This document shows positions 2 through 31,989 of a stretch of DNA of 32,777 nt, one piece after another. The notes under the pieces were generated by a model. That model saw only the letters and a list, made by a program, of their open reading frames with translations, was not told the origin of the DNA and made no database searches. A program made the translations under genes and the position numbers. Position 1 is the stretch's first letter; every line of letters starts with the position of its first letter. The DNA comes from Methylibium sp. (GTDB lineage Bacteria > Pseudomonadota > Gammaproteobacteria > Burkholderiales > Burkholderiaceae_C): the NCBI RefSeq assembly GCF_013817365.1, contig NZ_JACDCU010000007.1, positions 1 to 32,777 of the forward strand. Direction: 5' to 3'.

Positions 2-226
2 GACAAGGCGATCAAGGAAGGCATCACGCCGCTGGAATACATGCTGAAGATCATGCGCACAGAGCCTGAGCCCGGGCTTGATGCGCGCGACCTCATCTCA
101 GCCTGCACGCTGCGCTTCGAGGCCGCGAAAGCCGCTGCGCCGTACATCCATCCGCGGCTGGCGGCCATCGAGCACTCGGGCGGCATCGACACCACGCCGC
201 AGCTGAACATCACGCTCAATAGATGA
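2..226 (+). CDS. terS: Terminase small subunit, C-terminal part (partial at window edge)
   Basis: The frame is open from base 2, so the ATG at 41 in the ORF track is internal. The visible C-terminal ~74 residues start DKAIKEGITPLEYMLKIMR and continue with RFEAAKAAAPYIHPRLAA. This EGxTPLEYML...AAxxAAPYxHPRLAA pattern is the usual C-terminal half of phage terminase small subunits, which bind packaging-initiation DNA and recruit the large subunit. The stop overlaps the terminase large subunit start (ATGA), as expected for coupled packaging genes. The N-terminal DNA-binding region lies outside the window. The family call is from pattern recognition, supported by the adjacent terL. Confidence 0.85.
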   Translation, partial: DKAIKEGITPLEYMLKIMRTEPEPGLDARDLISACTLRFEAAKAAAPYIHPRLAAIEHSGGIDTTPQLNITLNR

Positions 227-1665
227 GCATCGACCTCGAACTGCACCCGAAGCAGACGGTTGCCTTCGAGACGCAGGCGACCGAGATTCTGTACGGCGGG
301 GCTGCGGGGGGTGGGAAGTCGCACCTGATGCGCGTCTGTGCCGTGGCCTGGTGCATCGCTGTGCCCGGGCTGCAGGTGTACCTTTTCCGCAGGACGCACC
401 CTGACCTGTGGAAGAACCACATGGAAGGCCCGTCATCGTTCCCCTCGCTGCTGGCTGACTGGATGGCCTCCGGCTTTGTGCGCGTCAACCTGTCCGACGG
501 TCAGGTGATCTTCGGCAACGGCAGCAAGATTCATTTGTGCCACTGCCAGCACGCCAAGGATGTCTTGCGCTACCAGGGCGCGGAAATCCACGTGCTGATG
601 ATCGACGAGCTCACCCACTTCCCGGAGTCGGTGTACCGCTTCCTGCGGGGTCGGTGTCGTCTCGGTGCGATGAAGTTGCCCGAGAAGTGGGCCGGCTACT
701 TCCCGCGCATCCTCAACGGGGCGAATCCAGGTGGCGAGGGCCACCACTGGGTCAAGGCGTCGTTCATCGACAACGCCGTGCCGCTATCGATCCGGCCGAT
801 GGAGCCGAAAGACGGTGGGATGCAGCGCCAGTACATTCCAGCCCGGCTGGACGATAACCCGACGATGGATGCCGACTACGGCGACAAGTTGTCCGGCCTC
901 GGCAATGAATCGCTTGTGAGGGCGATGCTCGAAGGTGATTGGGACATCGTCGCCGGCGCTTACTTCACCGAGTTCATGCGCGACCGGCATGTGGTCAAGC
1001 CCTTCACCATCCCGTCGCACTGGACGCGATATCGCTGCTTCGACTGGGGCTCAGCGAAGCCCTTCGCCTGCTACTGGATTGCCGTGTCGGACGGTGAGAT
1101 GCCGCAGTACCCGCGCGGTGCACTGATCTATTACCGCGAGTATTACGGCATGCGGGAAGTGGTCAACACCGGCTTGAAGCTCCCAGCGGACAAGGTGGCG
1201 CAGGAGATCAAGCGGCGCGACCGGGGCGACACGACCGGGCCTGGGGGTTGGGGCGTGGCTGACCCCTCCATCTTCACGGTGGACGGCGGCGAGAGCATCG
1301 CCGAGACGATGCGCAAGCAGGGCGTGACGTGGCGCAGGGCGGACAACAAGCGAATTCCGGGCTGGGAGCAGATGCGCATCCGGCTCGATGGGGACGGCGA
1401 CAACAAGCCGATGATCTTTTTCTTCGAGACGTGCGTTCACCTGATCCGCACGCTGCCTGCCTTGCAGCACGACGAACACAAGCCCGAGGACGTGGACACG
1501 AACAACGAGGACCACGCCCCGGATGCGGCGCGGTACGGCTGCATGGCCCGGCCGATCGTTCGCGGCGCCCCGAAGGCCAGACCTTCCGATCCAAGCCCGG
1601 GCTCGATCGAATGGCTGCTCAAGCGCACCGCTCAGGAAAAGGAGCGCAGCCAGTACCGAGGCTGA
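223..1665 (+). CDS. terL: Terminase large subunit (packaging ATPase/nuclease)
   Basis: 480 residues, normal for TerL. It pumps DNA into the prohead using ATP and cuts the concatemer. A Walker A motif, GGAAGGGKS, lies at residues 25-33. A Walker B, VLMIDE, is at about 124-129. The C-terminal RNase H-like nuclease is marked by acidic positions in CFDWGS (D274), ADPS (D347) and the EDHAPDAARY segment (about 429-436). The ATG overlaps the terS stop by four bases, so the start is well supported. The C-terminal tail (about 450-480) is basic and polar. Family membership is clear. The packaging type (cos or pac) cannot be read from this window. Confidence 0.96.
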   Translation: MSIDLELHPKQTVAFETQATEILYGGAAGGGKSHLMRVCAVAWCIAVPGLQVYLFRRTHPDLWKNHMEGPSSFPSLLADWMASGFVRVNLSDGQVIFGNGSKIHLCHCQHAKDVLRYQGAEIHVLMIDELTHFPESVYRFLRGRCRLGAMKLPEKWAGYFPRILNGANPGGEGHHWVKASFIDNAVPLSIRPMEPKDGGMQRQYIPARLDDNPTMDADYGDKLSGLGNESLVRAMLEGDWDIVAGAYFTEFMRDRHVVKPFTIPSHWTRYRCFDWGSAKPFACYWIAVSDGEMPQYPRGALIYYREYYGMREVVNTGLKLPADKVAQEIKRRDRGDTTGPGGWGVADPSIFTVDGGESIAETMRKQGVTWRRADNKRIPGWEQMRIRLDGDGDNKPMIFFFETCVHLIRTLPALQHDEHKPEDVDTNNEDHAPDAARYGCMARPIVRGAPKARPSDPSPGSIEWLLKRTAQEKERSQYRG

Positions 1666-8948: not shown

Positions 8949-9995
8949 ATGCCATTGAACGCGCTAGAAATCGAGAAAATCTCGAAGGTCGCCATCGACC
9001 ACTACCGGAAGAATCCGCCGGTCGATCAGATCAACGTCGAACGTCCCCTCCTTGACCTCCTCGTCAAGAAGGCCCGTCCCATCCCGGGCGGCAAGGAATA
9101 CATCGTTGACAACATCTATGTTGCCAACGGCGGCAACGGCCAGTACTGGTCGGGCAATTCCAAGGTCACGTACAACACCCGCAACCCGAACGAGCTGGTC
9201 AAGTACCGCTGGGCCAACTTCCACGATGGTTTCACCATCAACGAAGACGAACTCAAGCGCGCCGGCATCACGGTCAACGACGACAAGGGCAAGTCCACCG
9301 CCACCAGCGGTGAGGCCCTGGCGCTGACCAACATGCTCGAGAGCCAGTTCAAGGCCCTCGACGAAGGCGCCAAGGACTTCGTCCACGCGTCCCTGTGGCT
9401 GGACGGTTCGCAGTCGGCCGACGCCACCCCGGGTGTCGATGGGCTGGTCTCGACCACGCCCGCCACCGGCACGATCGGCGGCCTGAGCGCGGTGACGAAC
9501 ACCTACTGGCGCAACTTCGCGCGCACGGGTCTCGCCACCACGCTGACGGTGTTGCTGGATGCGTTGGAGCAGAACAAGCGCGATGTCATGCGGACCAAGG
9601 GCCGTGTGTCGCACTACTTCTGCGGCGCCGCGTTCTACGACGCGCTGCGCAATGCAGTCGTCGGCGCCAACGTCACGCAAGTGCAGTACAGCGGTGGCTC
9701 GACGCTCGATATCGACATGGCGACGAAGACCCTGCGCTTCGACGGCGTGCCGATGGTCTGGGTGCCGGACTTCGACACCAACTTCGGCCTGTCCGCGCCC
9801 ACGATCCCGTGGACCAAGCGCTGCTACGCGCTCGACCTGCGCCACCTCGACTTGCACCGCGACACGGACGACTGGATGCGCATGCGCTACCCGGGCCGCC
9901 CGATCGACCAGTACGTCTATTACTACGCCATGACGGCGAAGTACGGGATGTCACTGCGCAAGCGCAACGCACAAGGCGTGCTCGCCATCGCGTGA
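8949..9995 (+). CDS. Major capsid protein
   Basis: 348 residues, the expected size for an HK97-fold coat protein of a podovirus. Assignment rests on its place directly after the scaffold, a strong downstream terminator, and typical segments: NGQYWSGNSKVTYNTRNPNE, KYRWANFHDGFTINEDELK, and VDGLVSTTPATGTIGGLSAVTNTYWRNFA, split here into short parts. These are a pattern often seen in coat proteins (W-x-N-F-H-D-G-x-x-I and G-G-x-x-x-x-x-N-x-Y-W-R-N). The ATG follows ATGAGGTAACCC. It should self-assemble into the icosahedral shell around portal and scaffold. Confidence 0.88.
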   Translation: MPLNALEIEKISKVAIDHYRKNPPVDQINVERPLLDLLVKKARPIPGGKEYIVDNIYVANGGNGQYWSGNSKVTYNTRNPNELVKYRWANFHDGFTINEDELKRAGITVNDDKGKSTATSGEALALTNMLESQFKALDEGAKDFVHASLWLDGSQSADATPGVDGLVSTTPATGTIGGLSAVTNTYWRNFARTGLATTLTVLLDALEQNKRDVMRTKGRVSHYFCGAAFYDALRNAVVGANVTQVQYSGGSTLDIDMATKTLRFDGVPMVWVPDFDTNFGLSAPTIPWTKRCYALDLRHLDLHRDTDDWMRMRYPGRPIDQYVYYYAMTAKYGMSLRKRNAQGVLAIA

Positions 9996-16449: not shown

Positions 16450-17130
16450 TCAGGGCCGCTTGCGAGCGGCCCAGCCCACAAGACCGAGGCCGGCGAGCAT
16501 CAGCGCGTAGGTGGAGGGCTCGGGGATGGCAGCCATGACATCGCCATCACGAACGGCCCAAGCGCCGACGTAGGCTATCTGGAAGTCCTGGTCGCCCAGT
16601 TCGCCCCAGTTCGCGTACACCGACGAGTAGAACTCGCCGTCCTCGAACTTGTCGCTGGACTGATAGTCGCCGTCTATGACGCCGGAGAGAACGTAAGTCG
16701 GTTGAATGTTGAAGAACGGCCCGGCTGTCGTTTGATCGACTGCGGGACTGCCGAGTTGAATAAACAAGTTGTGCATCTCGGTCGAACCAGGCGTCGAAAA
16801 CATCTCGATGGAGCCATCCTTGACCGATAACAGCGCCCGCGGGGTTCGCCAATCGGTGTAGCCGCCAACGGTCAGGCTGTCGGCCCACTGGACCTGAGTC
16901 CAGAACGACATGTACCCTGGCGGCAGCGGGTTCGAGTCGCCATACGGGTACGAGTCCCCATACCATTCGGTGGCCACGTACCCGCTCGTGGCCGCGTAGT
17001 TGCCGTCCTGCAGCCAAGTGATGTTCTGGCTGCTGTCGTAGATCATGCCGCCGCCGCGGTCGAACAGAGCGGCCTGCGCGGTGGCAGTCATACAAAGCGC
17101 GGCAGCCGCGCAGATCGTGCGAATGTTCAT
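16450..17130 (-). CDS. PEP-CTERM exosortase-substrate protein, DUF1566-like
   Basis: 226 residues on the opposite strand to all neighbours. It has a signal peptide (MNIRTICAAAALCMTATAQA), then a DUF1566-like body (RGGGMIYDSSQNITWLQDG, WADSLTVGGYTDWRTP). The C-terminus ends in a PEP-CTERM sorting tag: PEPST at about 203-207, a hydrophobic stretch (YALMLAGLGLVGWAA) and a basic RKRP end. Established knowledge: such proteins are processed by exosortase in exopolysaccharide-making Gram-negatives. In a phage this is cargo likely expressed from the prophage, with its own promoter. It converges on the spike gene (1-base gap). The ATG is preceded by AGGGAC. Confidence 0.88.
   Translation of the reverse strand: MNIRTICAAAALCMTATAQAALFDRGGGMIYDSSQNITWLQDGNYAATSGYVATEWYGDSYPYGDSNPLPPGYMSFWTQVQWADSLTVGGYTDWRTPRALLSVKDGSIEMFSTPGSTEMHNLFIQLGSPAVDQTTAGPFFNIQPTYVLSGVIDGDYQSSDKFEDGEFYSSVYANWGELGDQDFQIAYVGAWAVRDGDVMAAIPEPSTYALMLAGLGLVGWAARKRP
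16453..16472. other. Inverted repeat at the convergent ends of two genes
   Basis: A perfect 8-bp stem, GGGCCGCT (16453-16460) with AGCGGCCC (16465-16472), and a TGCG loop. It lies just after the spike stop and inside the last codons of the PEP-CTERM gene. There is no T-run on either strand, so it is only a possible bidirectional stop or RNA-end structure. Confidence 0.45.
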
Positions 17131-24918: not shown

Positions 24919-27198
24919 ATGTCGTTTGCGCCAACGTACACGCCGACTACCAGTTTTGCCCAGGACGAGAGCAATCAAGCTAGCGGCAGGGCGACCGTCA
25001 AGACGGCGTCCGTCGATGTCGAACTCGCCAACATCGCCACCAGCCACAACGAGCTGAACGCGAACGTCAAGAAGCTCCAGCGCGACGACGACAAGCTACG
25101 CGATCTCCTGGTCGAGCCCTACGCCCTGTCCGAACAGACCCGGGCCATGATGGCGGCGGGCGGGAAGGTCCCCAAAGGAGCCTGGCTGGCCAACACCAAC
25201 TACGCCCTGAGCGACCTGGTGCAGTTTCAGGCCGTGGCCTACATGTGCCAGACGGCGCACAACTCCGGGCCGTCGTTCAACGTCGGCTTCTGGCTCACAA
25301 TCTCGGGGGACGGCTCGTCGGCATCCAGTGCCCAGCAGTCAGCCGCCAGTGCCGCGACCGCCTCTGCCGCCGCCGCCGCTTCCGCCACCTCTGCGATCAA
25401 TGCGGATTCGGCCGCAGACGCTGCCATGCTGAGCGCGAACGGAGCGGCAGACAGCGAACTCGCCGCGCAGAACGCGGCGAACTCGATCGCTGGGCTTACC
25501 CCGGTGAACCTGTCGGCCTACATGCTCGATCTGCTGGCGAACAACAGCGCCGCATCGACCAGAACCGATCTGGGTGCAGCCAGTGCCGTTTCCGTTGCTG
25601 GCGTCAGCGTGAAGGATTTCGGGGCGCTGTGCAACGGTGTGACGGATGACACCGCCGCTGTCGCTGCGGCAGTGGCGGAGGCGCTTTCAAGAAACGTCGG
25701 CGTCATCTGGTCTGGGGGCTCGGCGCTCACTTCGGCGTCGATTGCAGACTTTCACTCGGTGCGTCACTACGGCTACGGCGCCGTGATTCGTGGGACGGAC
25801 ACGTTCTACATCTCACCCACCGGCAGCCAGACGAACACGATATACACCTCCACATCGGGAAGTGTTTTCTCTGACGGCTTGTCCGCAGCGCAGCCACGGC
25901 GCACGCTGCAGGCCGCCATCGATGCGCTGTCGAACTGGCAGCTCATGGGCGGCGGCTGGAAGATCAAGATGGCCGCCGGCACCTATGCCCGCGCACGCAC
26001 GCCGGACGCCGGGCTGCGCAGCCTGAAGCCCATCGAGATCGAGGGGCCGGCCGTGGGCGGCCATCCCAATGTGCCGACTGCCTTGGTCAAGGAAGGCGCC
26101 ACGCAGGCGTCCACGGGACTGGTGGTGTTCGACACCAACCTAGTGCTTCGAGATATCAAATTCGAGGATTACAACGGCACATCCGCTGCGGCAGGCGTGT
26201 CGGGATCGCGGTCCTTGATCTACACCGAAAACGTCCACTTCACGGACTGCTATTACGGGTTCTCGAACGGCGGCGCGCCGGCAGTGGTGAATGTCAAGGG
26301 CGGCATCTTCGATGACTGCGGCTACCTGAACAGCGTGACCTCAGGCGGCGCGGCGATCCGCGGTTTATTCCACCCGAAGTGCGAGATCGGCGCGCAGGAT
26401 GCCGGCACGCTGGCAGGCGGCCCGATCATCCGCAATTGCTCGCTCGGGATTCGACTTCAGGAGGGGGGCACCGGGCATTGCGACTTCGTGACCTTCGAGG
26501 ATTGCGGCGTCGGTATTCGCTTCCCGACCGGGGCGCGGCTGAACCTCGATGGATCAAGTTTCAAGCGCTGCGGAACGGCCATTTACATCACCAGCGGCAG
26601 CTACGCCGACACCACCCCGAACACGGTATTCGGGACGGGTGCCGACGCCAACGGCCGAAACATCGTGGTTGGGCAGGGGAGCCTCGTCGCCAGCGGCGTG
26701 ATCGACGGACAGGCGCTCGGGAACGCCGTGGACATCCACTGCTTCAGCACCACGTACCCCGCCGCCGTGTACACGTCGATCTCTTCGGTGAACACGGTCG
26801 AAAGTTTCCTTCTCAAGGCGGGCCAGTTCGGCGGTGTCGCGTACTCCGCCAACCCTTCCCGGAAAATCCGCTGCATCGTCCACGGGACGCTCGCCGGCAC
26901 CACAGGCACCTACAAGCGCGTGGCCCTGCGGCTCGGTTCAGCGGCGATTGCGCTGCTGTCGTTCGCTGGCTCCACGGTGGGCAACTTCCGTGCCGAGCTG
27001 GAGTGGTCCTTCATTAGCAGCAGCGTCCAGCACTACAGCGCGATCGGCACCGCGGCGGGAGTCGTTCCGTCCCTCAGCCAAGGCGCTGGCGCGGTGGGTA
27101 TGTCGGTTGACCAGACCATTGCCCTGCAGGCCTACGTGGAGAACGCCGCAGACAGCATAACGGTCAACGCTATCGAGTGGTTCGTGCAGGGGGTATGA
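24919..27198 (+). CDS. Tail spike (pectate-lyase-like beta-helix)
   Basis: 759 residues. Residues 89-117 hold a small carbohydrate-binding pattern (WLANTNYALSDLVQF, YMCQTAHNSG). Residues 131-188 are an Ala/Ser-rich helical coiled-coil linker. At about 228 starts the spike entry motif SVKDFGALCNGVTDDTAAV, common in pectate-lyase-type phage spikes. The beta-helix continues to about 560, with LVLRDIKFEDYNGT, FVTFEDCGVGIRFPTG and FKRCGTAIYITSG. The C-terminal 170 residues are a beta-sandwich cap (YKRVALRLGSAAIALLSFAG). It probably binds and cuts a host polysaccharide. The catalytic residues cannot be named with confidence. Confidence 0.82.
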   Translation: MSFAPTYTPTTSFAQDESNQASGRATVKTASVDVELANIATSHNELNANVKKLQRDDDKLRDLLVEPYALSEQTRAMMAAGGKVPKGAWLANTNYALSDLVQFQAVAYMCQTAHNSGPSFNVGFWLTISGDGSSASSAQQSAASAATASAAAAASATSAINADSAADAAMLSANGAADSELAAQNAANSIAGLTPVNLSAYMLDLLANNSAASTRTDLGAASAVSVAGVSVKDFGALCNGVTDDTAAVAAAVAEALSRNVGVIWSGGSALTSASIADFHSVRHYGYGAVIRGTDTFYISPTGSQTNTIYTSTSGSVFSDGLSAAQPRRTLQAAIDALSNWQLMGGGWKIKMAAGTYARARTPDAGLRSLKPIEIEGPAVGGHPNVPTALVKEGATQASTGLVVFDTNLVLRDIKFEDYNGTSAAAGVSGSRSLIYTENVHFTDCYYGFSNGGAPAVVNVKGGIFDDCGYLNSVTSGGAAIRGLFHPKCEIGAQDAGTLAGGPIIRNCSLGIRLQEGGTGHCDFVTFEDCGVGIRFPTGARLNLDGSSFKRCGTAIYITSGSYADTTPNTVFGTGADANGRNIVVGQGSLVASGVIDGQALGNAVDIHCFSTTYPAAVYTSISSVNTVESFLLKAGQFGGVAYSANPSRKIRCIVHGTLAGTTGTYKRVALRLGSAAIALLSFAGSTVGNFRAELEWSFISSSVQHYSAIGTAAGVVPSLSQGAGAVGMSVDQTIALQAYVENAADSITVNAIEWFVQGV

Positions 27199-28991: not shown

Positions 28992-29255
28992 ATGACCCCA
29001 CCCAAGCTCATCATGGTCCGCTGGGAAGACGCGAAAGTGATCGAGGGGGGAACGTGGTGCGAGAACAAGCCCAGGGTCTATGAGCCGCATGTGTTCGTGC
29101 AGATCGGCTTCCTGACGCTCGATGCGCCCGAGGGCATTCACCTTGTGGCGGCCTGGCACCCGGAGCAGACTTCGCCGCCCGACCAGATACCCCGCGCGAT
29201 GATCCGCGAGATGGTCGAACTGGTGCCCAAGATCGGCAAAAAGGGCGGCCGGTAA
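28992..29255 (+). CDS. Hypothetical phage protein
   Basis: 87 residues from ATG 28992; the track's 28857 start lies in Rz1. The sequence has a short beta-rich start (PPKLIMVRWEDAKVIEGGTW) and an end rich in helix and basic residues (MIREMVELVPKIGKKGGR). Nothing assigns it. It is linked to the metallophosphoesterase gene by TAATG. These two genes are the last plus-strand genes before the attachment region. Confidence 0.6.
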   Translation: MTPPKLIMVRWEDAKVIEGGTWCENKPRVYEPHVFVQIGFLTLDAPEGIHLVAAWHPEQTSPPDQIPRAMIREMVELVPKIGKKGGR

Positions 29256-30439
29256 TGGTCGCGCCAACGGGCCAACTCGATGAGCGACTGAAAACCTGGG
29301 CCAGCGAGACGCAGTGCCGCTACATCGACGCCGTCAACGAACACGGCTCGCTGCGCGCCGCTGCCCGCGCGCTCGGGCTGAACTACACAACGGTCAACGG
29401 CGCCATACGTGCAGCGAAGGGCCGGGCGTCCCTCAAGGGCTGGTCGCCCGAGCACGACATGACCAAGACGGTCCCGGAGGCGTTCGTGGTTCGCGGCACG
29501 TCCACGCTGTACGACGAGGCCGGCAAGGCGAAGCTGCAGTGGGTCAAGACGCGTCTGGACGACGAGAAGGCCGGCGAGGTGGTTCGCGCCGCCATCGCCG
29601 CGCTGTCGGAGGATGTCCGCGCACTCGCGCCGCTAACGCCAGCGCCCGAGCGGGTGCATGACGATCTGCTGTGCGTGATCCCGATAGGCGACTGCCACAT
29701 CGGTATGTACGCCTGGGCCAAGGAGACGGGCGATGCATTCGATCTCGACATCGCCCGCAAGCTGACAACGGGGGCCATCGACCGACTGATGCAGGCCGCA
29801 CCGCCGTCTAAGACATGCATTATCTTGCCTTTAGGCGACGTATTCCACGCAGACGACCAGACCAACCAGACGCCGGCCCACCGCCATCAGCTCGACGTGG
29901 ACTCGCGCTACGTCAAGGTTCTCGGGGTCGGCATCGAGGCGTTCCGCCACGTCATCCTGCGCGCGCTGCAAAAGCACGAGCGCGTGATCGTGCGCTTCGT
30001 CGCCGGCAACCACGACCCGCACAGCATCTGGGCGCTGGCCTTCACGATCTCGGCCTACTTCGCCAACGAACCCCGAGTCGAGGTGGACTTGAGCCCGTCG
30101 AAGTTCTGGTTCTTCCGCTTCGGCCAGGTGCTGATCGGATCGACCCACGGCGACACGGTCAAGCATGACGCGCTGCTCGGCGTGATGGCCGCCGACCGGG
30201 CCCAGGACTGGGGGCAGACCTCCAGGCGCTACTGGTACACCGGCCACGTCCACCACCAGAGCGTGCGCGAGTACCCCGGCGTGGTGTGCGAGTCCTTCCG
30301 CACCCTGGCGGCCAAGGACGCCTATGCGGCGGGACACGGCTACCGGGCAGGGCGCGACATGGTTGCCATCGTGCATCACCGCGAGCACGGCGAGATCGAG
30401 CGGCACCGCGTGGACATTGGGATGCTGGAGCCGGCTTAG
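29255..30439 (+). CDS. HTH-metallophosphoesterase
   Basis: 394 residues. Residues 1-55 are an HTH (RYIDAVNEHGSLRAAARALG, then LNYTTVNGAIRAAKG). From about 140, a calcineurin-like phosphoesterase shows all metal motifs: GDCHIG (D146, H148), GDVFHAD (D195), GNHD (N252-D254), a His in STHGD, and GHVHHQ (H331, H333). The fold cuts phosphodiester or nucleotide bonds with two metals; the N-terminal HTH suggests a DNA substrate. Mre11/SbcD-like activity or signal-nucleotide cleavage is possible. It lies next to attP after the lysis genes, typical of accessory genes. Confidence 0.85.
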   Translation: MVAPTGQLDERLKTWASETQCRYIDAVNEHGSLRAAARALGLNYTTVNGAIRAAKGRASLKGWSPEHDMTKTVPEAFVVRGTSTLYDEAGKAKLQWVKTRLDDEKAGEVVRAAIAALSEDVRALAPLTPAPERVHDDLLCVIPIGDCHIGMYAWAKETGDAFDLDIARKLTTGAIDRLMQAAPPSKTCIILPLGDVFHADDQTNQTPAHRHQLDVDSRYVKVLGVGIEAFRHVILRALQKHERVIVRFVAGNHDPHSIWALAFTISAYFANEPRVEVDLSPSKFWFFRFGQVLIGSTHGDTVKHDALLGVMAADRAQDWGQTSRRYWYTGHVHHQSVREYPGVVCESFRTLAAKDAYAAGHGYRAGRDMVAIVHHREHGEIERHRVDIGMLEPA

Positions 30440-30508: not shown

Positions 30509-30741
30509 CGTGGGAATATACCTCTCGCAACCCGCGCCAATGCGTGCTCAAAAAATAGGCAATCGTTCCCATGGATCGGGTTGCAGGCCGCGCCAATCCT
30601 AGATAGAGCCGGTGGACTCTTAATCCGTAGGTCGAGTGTTCGAGTCACTCAGGGCCCACCATATAAATCAAGCACTTAGAAGCGCATCACTGGATGCATT
30701 CACAGTGTTTGATTCCCACCAAATTCCCACCGTGGGAATAT
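30509..30741. other. Probable attP region with integrase arm-type repeats
   Basis: The non-coding region before the integrase holds four copies of the 8-mer ATTCCCAC or its reverse complement: CGTGGGAATAT at 30509-30519, ATTCCCACC at 30712-30720 and 30723-30731, and CGTGGGAATAT at 30731-30741. The last two form the palindrome ATTCCCACCGTGGGAAT. They flank the tRNA-like core on both sides, as lambda-type arm sites do. A second direct repeat, CCGCGCCAAT, occurs at 30532-30541 and 30588-30597. Confidence 0.6.
30601..30661 (+). other. att core: 3' part of a tRNA-Lys(CUU) gene
   Basis: The sequence GGACTCTTAATCC (anticodon loop CTCTTAA, anticodon CTT), the T arm GAGTG-TTCGAGT-CACTC (30634-30650) and AGGGCCCACCA (end 30661) together match the 3' half of a tRNA-Lys. 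The 5' acceptor and D arm are missing, so it is not a working tRNA gene. Phage integrases often use tRNA 3' ends: the phage copy restores the host tRNA after insertion. It lies directly beside the integrase. Confidence 0.75.
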
Positions 30742-30748
30742 CCACGCG

Positions 30749-31786
30749 CTACAGCGCATTGCGCCGTGCAACTCCGCTGCGCTCATAGACTTTTGCCGTT
30801 GTGCCGGGGTTGACGTGCAAATCCGGCAGCGAGCCGGTGCGCGCCTTGTGCTCCGTCGCGTAGTAGGCGCGTAGGTCGTGGAACGTGAAGCGGCGCGTGA
30901 CGATCATCGCCGCGACCGCCTCGCGCATCAGCTTGCCCCACATGGCAGCGAACCCGGATGAGGTGTACGGGTTGCCGCGCCGGTTCGGGAACACCGCACC
31001 GAGCTTGCCATCGGCGGAGAACGCCTGCAGCCGGCCGCGCAGTTCCAACAGCGCCGCGCTTGCCGCCACGCGCTCGACCTTCTCGACGCCGAGTCGCTGC
31101 TTGGCTCTGCGGATGCGCACCTCGTCCATACCGAACTGAGGCCAATGCAACGGGAGTAACTCGGCCTGCCGGCTTCCGGCGAGTGCCGCGAACTCAGCGG
31201 CCATCACGATGATGCGCCACTGGCCGCCCTTGCTGTTTGCATGATTAACCAGCGCGTCGATCTGCTCGCGCTCGGGCGCGACGGTCCGCGGTCGCTCGCG
31301 GTTGCGGGCGACTTGTCCGCCTCGGCATGGGTTGTGAGTCGCTTCGCCGCGTTCGATCGCCAGCCCGATCAGGTTGCCGAGCAATGCGACCTCCCGATTG
31401 GCTCGAACCGGCGCTTGCGCACGCTCGATGCGCAGGTAGCGCGCAACATCGGGGGCGGTGATGACGGATGCGTGGACATCGCCGAACACGGGCAAGAGGC
31501 TCTCGCTGTAGGACTCGTAATCGGCCTGGGTGCGCTCGCGCAGGCTGGCCCATGCCGGCGACGCCTTGTAGTGCGCCCACAGGCGACTGACGGTGCCGAC
31601 ATCTTCCGTCTTGCCGTTCAACTCCAGCACCTTGCGGATCGCATCCGCACGGTCGGTGCCGAGCGCGAGAGGTTTGCCGCCGACCGGGTGATAGCGGTAG
31701 CTCACGGTCTTGCCGTCGCTCCAGGGGCGGGCTTCCATGCGCGGGAGCAGGCCGGCGGCTGTCGCACGGTCGCGGGGTTTGTTCAT
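30749..31786 (-). CDS. int: Tyrosine recombinase integrase
   Basis: 345 residues from ATG 31786 (AAGG upstream); the track's 31948 start reads through the neighbour gene. It has the SAM-like core-binding part (about 60-150: SRLWAHYKASPAWASLRERT) and a catalytic domain with R206 (AGSRQAELLPLHW), K229 (AKQRLG), H303-x-x-R306 (FHDLRAYYATE) and nucleophile Y334 (TTAKVYERSG). The His usually found nine residues before Tyr is not there; H324 is at ten. It would catalyse attP-attB recombination at the adjacent tRNA-like site. Its ATG overlaps the stop of the preceding DUF4224-like gene. Confidence 0.93.
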   Translation of the reverse strand: MNKPRDRATAAGLLPRMEARPWSDGKTVSYRYHPVGGKPLALGTDRADAIRKVLELNGKTEDVGTVSRLWAHYKASPAWASLRERTQADYESYSESLLPVFGDVHASVITAPDVARYLRIERAQAPVRANREVALLGNLIGLAIERGEATHNPCRGGQVARNRERPRTVAPEREQIDALVNHANSKGGQWRIIVMAAEFAALAGSRQAELLPLHWPQFGMDEVRIRRAKQRLGVEKVERVAASAALLELRGRLQAFSADGKLGAVFPNRRGNPYTSSGFAAMWGKLMREAVAAMIVTRRFTFHDLRAYYATEHKARTGSLPDLHVNPGTTAKVYERSGVARRNAL

Positions 31787-31989
31787 GCTACCTTGCTCCA
31801 CTTCGGCCCGCCGGCCGGCTTGCCATTGTGCTGCCGCTCCCAATCGTTGCGCCACACCAGCGGTGAGCCGTCGGGCCGACGCTCGACCCGCAGTCCGATC
31901 CGGCGCAGGAATCGAATCTGCGCGAAGTGCTGCGTCAGCGGCCGGCAAATGCCATCGACTTCCGAGTCGGACAGGTACGGAGGCATCAC
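31783..31989 (-). CDS. DUF4224-like integrase partner
   Basis: 68 residues, ending with an ATGA overlap into int. The sequence LSDSEVDGICRPLTQHFAQI and RFLRRIGLRVERRPDGSPLV is the typical DUF4224 pattern, a small helix-rich protein usually coupled to integrases in betaproteobacterial and gammaproteobacterial phages. It may act as a directionality factor or an accessory DNA binder; I cannot tell which. The start is MM, of which the first is used in the track. Confidence 0.82.
   Translation of the reverse strand: MMPPYLSDSEVDGICRPLTQHFAQIRFLRRIGLRVERRPDGSPLVWRNDWERQHNGKPAGGPKWSKVA

Follow-up and report, generated by a model that had tools for sequence, protein, structure and literature searches.

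A very probable attachment site of a temperate, podovirus-like phage at a tRNA-Lys(CUU) 3' half

Comparison with described attachment systems

The lambda attP is composed of arm-type Int sites around a core and an IHF site on the P' side, is served by a tyrosine integrase and a small excision factor, and has a non-tRNA target with a 15-bp core. The DNA analysed here, referred to as the window, is the entire contig C30 (32,777 bases) of a genome bin. Its interval 30509-30741 resembles the lambda attP in that repeated arm-type sites flank a core on both sides at conserved places, accompanied by a P'-side candidate IHF site, a tyrosine integrase, and a predicted excision factor. It differs in that a 48-nt tRNA 3' part serves as the core and the TTCCCAC arm sites are partly inverted. 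As in the tRNA-type sites of Islander (PMC4383910), the 48-nt identity rebuilds the tRNA and a tyrosine integrase lies beside the site.

For scoring of the geometry, every TTCCC or GGGAA was placed relative to the CCA end of the tRNA part. Burkholderia phage Magia (NC_070954.1) encodes an integrase that is 53% identical over 88% of the query, and it shares with the window a tRNA 3' half, TTCCC/GGGAA sites (at -149, -96, and +72/+82), an IHF consensus, and an excisionase gene beside int, but its half is derived from tRNA-His(GUG) and that of the window from tRNA-Lys(CUU). The Magia attP is a reading of this analysis, there being no att site among the listed features of the stretch examined. IMGVR_UViG_3300049191_000027 (L013) encodes an integrase with 71% identity and carries both arm sets at equal offsets around a tRNA-Lys(CUU) half, with a DUF4224-like gene upstream of int. 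No head or tail DNA common to L013 and the window was detected, and the int-attP block of L013 is therefore placed in a different phage backbone. The prophage of UWPOB_RUBRI2 (JAFLDH010000208.1; L023/L068, L067) likewise has an integrase with 71% identity, a tRNA-Lys(CUU) located behind another tRNA gene, and the arm geometry of the window, but it is integrated, its arms are split between attL and attR, and its core differs at several T-arm bases.

Based on these comparisons and on the evidence given below, the interval was interpreted as an entire attP, belonging to a podovirus-like temperate phage that targets the host tRNA-Lys(CUU), with an estimated probability of about 0.94. Nothing observed speaks directly against this reading. 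It is an ordinary, very well-preserved example of a kind of site that is already well known, and it overturns nothing known. Its value lies in linking an uncultured phage with a specific chromosomal gene and with the bacterium that is likely its host and, together with its relatives, in providing a clean natural series for how integrases switch their tRNA target while the arm sites are kept.

The attachment site and its tRNA target

A preliminary description had reported a tRNA 3' half, from anticodon to CCA, flanked by four repeats. The half was located at 30614-30661, and all four repeats are real, perfect copies of ATTCCCAC, but the arm-type sites number five, a degenerate one having been overlooked. 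The features of the site are as follows.

30510-30517 (-): P-arm site 1, ATTCCCAC; GGGAA at -150 from the CCA end (-147 to -150 in 7 of 7 P-side loci)
30565-30572 (+): P-arm site 2, GTTCCCAT, degenerate; TTCCC at -96 from the CCA end (-94 to -96 in 7 of 7 P-side loci)
30604-30613 (+): imperfect continuation of the tRNA similarity on the 5' side; its alignment with the C531 tRNA-Lys(CUU) contains one gap and two mismatches
30614-30661 (+): attP core; these 48 nt of tRNA-Lys(CUU) span the anticodon stem through CCA and match C531:591-638 (-) exactly
30617-30623 (+): probable 7-bp crossover (overlap) region, the anticodon loop CTCTTAA between GGA and TCC (GGA-N7-TCC inverted repeat)
30666-30678 (+): candidate IHF site AATCAAGCACTTA (consensus WATCAANNNNTTR), the sole perfect consensus match in the window (0.17 expected)
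30712-30719 (+): P'-arm site 1, ATTCCCAC; TTCCC at +51
30723-30730 (+): P'-arm site 2, ATTCCCAC; TTCCC at +62
30732-30739 (-): P'-arm site 3, ATTCCCAC inverted; GGGAA at +72, paired with P'-arm site 2 as TTCCCACCGTGGGAA

When both strands of the window were searched, the 4 copies of ATTCCCAC were all found inside 30509-30741; shuffling gave an expectation of 0.69 matches, and 4 were reached in 0 of 100 shuffles. For the inverted pair TTCCCACCGTGGGAA (30724-30738), 0.01 matches were expected with one mismatch allowed. The degenerate site GTTCCCAT is conserved in relatives in both position and orientation. Judged by their spacing, the P' sites of the window look like the pair common among relatives plus one extra 11-bp unit, which is about one helical turn. 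L013, L023, L028, and phage Magia have an IHF consensus at a similar position; the match in the window may partly overlap a hairpin stem and may in part be a terminator stem that came with the tRNA flank.

A complete tRNA was not found by ARAGORN in the whole window, and Rfam gave zero matches in the window at the gathering threshold. On contig C531 of the same bin, a tRNA-Lys(UUU) gene and a tRNA-Lys(CUU) gene stand in tandem. The final 48 bases of this tRNA-Lys(CUU) match the phage half without exception, the exact 48 nt occur nowhere else in the bin, and joining the 5' part of the host tRNA to the phage half yields the native gene letter for letter. The target proposed in the preliminary description thus agrees with the same-bin gene and with the 71% relative integrated at tRNA-Lys(CUU). 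The crossover probably lies in the anticodon loop, as suggested by the GGA-N7-TCC repeat and by the anticodon-centred class of attP subsites described in Islander (PMC4383910).

In the tRNA-dependent lysogeny of mycobacteriophages, integration breaks the tRNA, which is replaced by a phage tRNA; the core is about 10 bp and the tRNA is not rebuilt (PMC10865867). These systems also combine a tyrosine integrase with tRNA-Lys, but their application to the window is contradicted by the 48-nt core, which extends through CCA and rebuilds the tRNA exactly, and a full tRNA gene is absent from the window; this explanation is scarcely credible here.

Of 399 genomes sampled across the order, 3 contained the exact 48 nt, and all 3 belong to the window's own family; within its genus, most genomes carry this sequence. 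This distribution supports the binned host without proof, the host identity being based on one bin and the core match. It is unlikely that C30 was binned with the wrong host and that the true host shares the tRNA-Lys(CUU) 3' half, in which case the attP status would be unaffected. The exact core is common to several family members, and bins of mixed DNA can gather stray phage contigs, but its restriction to the one family and most of the genus argues for the binned host, as does the resemblance of a PEP-CTERM tail encoded by the phage to tails in the same bin.

On the 3' side of the C531 tRNA-Lys(CUU) lies unrelated DNA. This 3' flank differs among nearly all members of the genus, which suggests a much-used integration site. 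Because it varies across nearly the whole genus, the C531 flank was not callable as native, and its assignment as an untouched attB was not adopted. Within the flank (L004 1-590, G000:C531), a decayed integrase-like fragment was recognized by eye; a Pfam search of this fragment gave zero matches. In Pseudorhodoferax soli (L069, G065:C13), two tRNA-Lys(CUU) 3' halves are located 17 kb apart (112220-112276 and 129372-129417), and the sequence retrieved contains no full tRNA. By sequence, these appear to be the remains of one or more other elements with the same target.

Integrase, relatives, and split sites

The integrase and a probable excision factor are encoded to the right of the site.

30749-31786 (-): tyrosine integrase, 345 aa (PHROG integrase 3.5e-33; PF00589 9.7e-9)
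31783-31989 (-): small DUF4224 protein, candidate Xis/RDF (PF13986 9.5e-5, just over the cut-off)

The integrase probably starts at the ATG at 31786, and the 399-aa reading from a TTG is probably too long, since relatives (L013, L021, L024) carry in-frame stops upstream of the equivalent ATG. Its motifs RAKQR, HDLR, and VYxR recur in relatives, and comparison of the integrase with solved structures gave zero matches at E 0.001. The DUF4224 gene overlaps the start of int and has a homologue upstream of int in L013, and the gene in its place in phage Magia is annotated as an excisionase; the DUF4224 protein is a probable excision factor. No relevant work was found in those parts of the literature available to a search for DUF4224 together with integrase.

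Integrase identity was 71% for L013 and L023, 56% for L014 and L015, 53% for phage Magia, and 42-55% for prophages in genomes of the same family. Oppositely oriented P-arm sites were present at -147 to -150 and -94 to -96 in all seven loci holding the P side (window, L013, L014, L015, L067, L096, and Magia). On the P' side, most loci have an inverted pair at +51/+61, which in L027 lies at +50/+60. The window, L013, and L023 carry three sites (+51/+62/+72), and the pair is shifted in L102 (+51/+71), L028 (+60/+70), Magia (+72/+82), and L107 (+73/+83). The chance frequency of each 5-mer at a given base is about 0.001, and the agreement in offsets is therefore not accidental. The TTCCC/GGGAA motif was absent from two His-tRNA loci (L105 and L106). 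In L014 and L015, the P-core-P' site is turned round relative to int, an arrangement that would place int next to attR and not next to attL.

The expectation that a prophage splits the site was borne out in the integrated relatives: attL loci (L023, L027, L098, L103, L019, and L024) have P' arms only, and attR loci (L067 and L096) have P arms only. One such relative lies in the Burkholderiales MAG UWPOB_RUBRI2 (G064). On its contig C122, a full tRNA-Lys(CUU), in front of which a neighbouring tRNA gene ends, lies beside the gene for the 71% identical integrase and has P' sites only. Near the start of its contig C27, a displaced, identical 48-nt half is preceded by P sites only and followed by a hairpin and other sequence. 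These two contigs carry the candidate attL and attR of one prophage at tRNA-Lys(CUU). In the G024 chromosome (C1 5428717/5440071), a tRNA-Lys(UUU) and a displaced 3' part bracket 11.4 kb containing a related, shortened integrase. Both G064 and G024 thus have a full tRNA at one end and a displaced fragment at the other.

In the window, P, core, and P' lie in one piece and, since attL has P' only and attR has P only, the site is therefore an attP. The alternative that it is the attL or attR of a single prophage, with its flank misread as phage DNA, would fit the attL of relatives, in which int adjoins the tRNA, but both arm sets are present here, the tRNA 5' half is absent, and the far-side gene belongs to a phage exonuclease family; the probability of this alternative is negligible.

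One integrase lineage with the same arm sites adjoins tRNA-Met, Lys-CUU, Lys-UUU, or His genes (L098, L102, L099, L027, L103, L107, L028, L019, L024, and L040), and the offsets of the P' pair among these loci differ in steps of about 10-11 bp. We somewhat favour the view that the lineage keeps an attP chassis (sites near -150, -96, +51, and +61, varied by additional P' sites or by displacements of about 11 bp) and changes its tRNA target (Lys-CUU, Lys-UUU, His-GUG, Met-CAU), the int-attP block moving between unrelated backbones. If true, this would be of moderate interest to specialists.

State of the phage DNA and gene content of the contig

Phage genes of the contig include the following.

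223-1665 (+): terminase large subunit (phrog_979 4.9e-33)
8949-9995 (+): major capsid protein, podovirus type (phrog_9953 2.4e-28; NF033394 capsid_maj_Podo, 241 bits at a cut-off of 80 bits)
29255-30439 (+): phage exonuclease-like gene, left of the site (phrog_704 3.9e-115)

The window also codes for an internal virion protein, an amidase-like protein, and a tailspike-like protein. The attachment site is bounded by phage genes on both sides, as the preliminary description had stated, with the exonuclease-like gene on the left and int and small genes on the right; host genes were not found beyond the site on either side within C30. No terminal repeat or end overlap indicating a circular genome was found in C30, and the contig is probably incomplete, with uninformative ends. 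The closest structural relative is 39.5 kb in length and has primosomal and helicase-loader genes before its terminase; these genes are absent upstream of the terminase in the window, and C30 is therefore probably a partial phage genome. A search of the same bin for the early region, using DNA of the closest relative, gave weak matches only.

Within the bin, the arms were found on C30 only, and the tRNA on C531 has different DNA around it; the assembly therefore contains neither an attL nor an attR junction. With both arms intact and no host flank, the site is unrecombined in the assembled DNA, and the phage is likely extrachromosomal and not integrated. The preliminary description had drawn this conclusion directly from the interior position of the site; the conclusion is likely to hold, but the step was too strong, since an attP also lies where the two copies of a tandem double lysogen meet. 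Such a junction between two prophages at one tRNA has both arms and looks exactly like attP, 125 tandem tDNA arrays of two or more are known from Islander (PMC4383910), and the ends of C30 do not overlap as would be expected for a closed circle. A tandem junction is nevertheless very unlikely, given that the bin lacks any attL or attR contig bearing these arms and that the 3' flank of the tRNA-Lys(CUU) on C531 is unrelated DNA.

The mechanism proposed for the attP combines established knowledge of tyrosine integrases (PMC2951348, PMC4383910) with the observed anatomy of the site, its identity with the same-bin tRNA, the conserved arm geometry, and the split arms of integrated relatives. Int would bridge arm and core by binding the TTCCCAC arm sites, of which P has two and P' three, together with core-type sites of the anticodon stem, and the P' side would be folded by a host bending protein, probably IHF. 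Strands would be exchanged with the host tRNA-Lys(CUU) at a point inside the 48-nt identity, the anticodon loop being the most likely place. With the 5' part coming from the host and the 3' part through CCA from the phage, the tRNA would remain unchanged. After integration, attL would adjoin int, and attR would consist of the P arm, the displaced 3' half, and the native flank. Excision would require Int and probably the DUF4224 protein encoded next to it.

Two further genes of the window were recorded. The tailspike-like protein (24919-27198, +) has weak pectate-lyase-like and carbohydrate-binding module matches. At 16450-17130 (-), on the opposite strand amid phage late genes, a 226-aa protein is encoded whose start resembles a signal peptide and which bears a PEP-CTERM sorting tail (PF07589, 1.3e-9). 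There are 15 PEP-CTERM matches elsewhere in the bin, with tails up to 93% alike (DNA, over 41 bp); relatives of the phage gene were not found in IMG/VR with the patterns used. An exosortase-type surface protein carried by a phage seems unusual, and the presence of this gene within the phage is the most unusual of the side observations.
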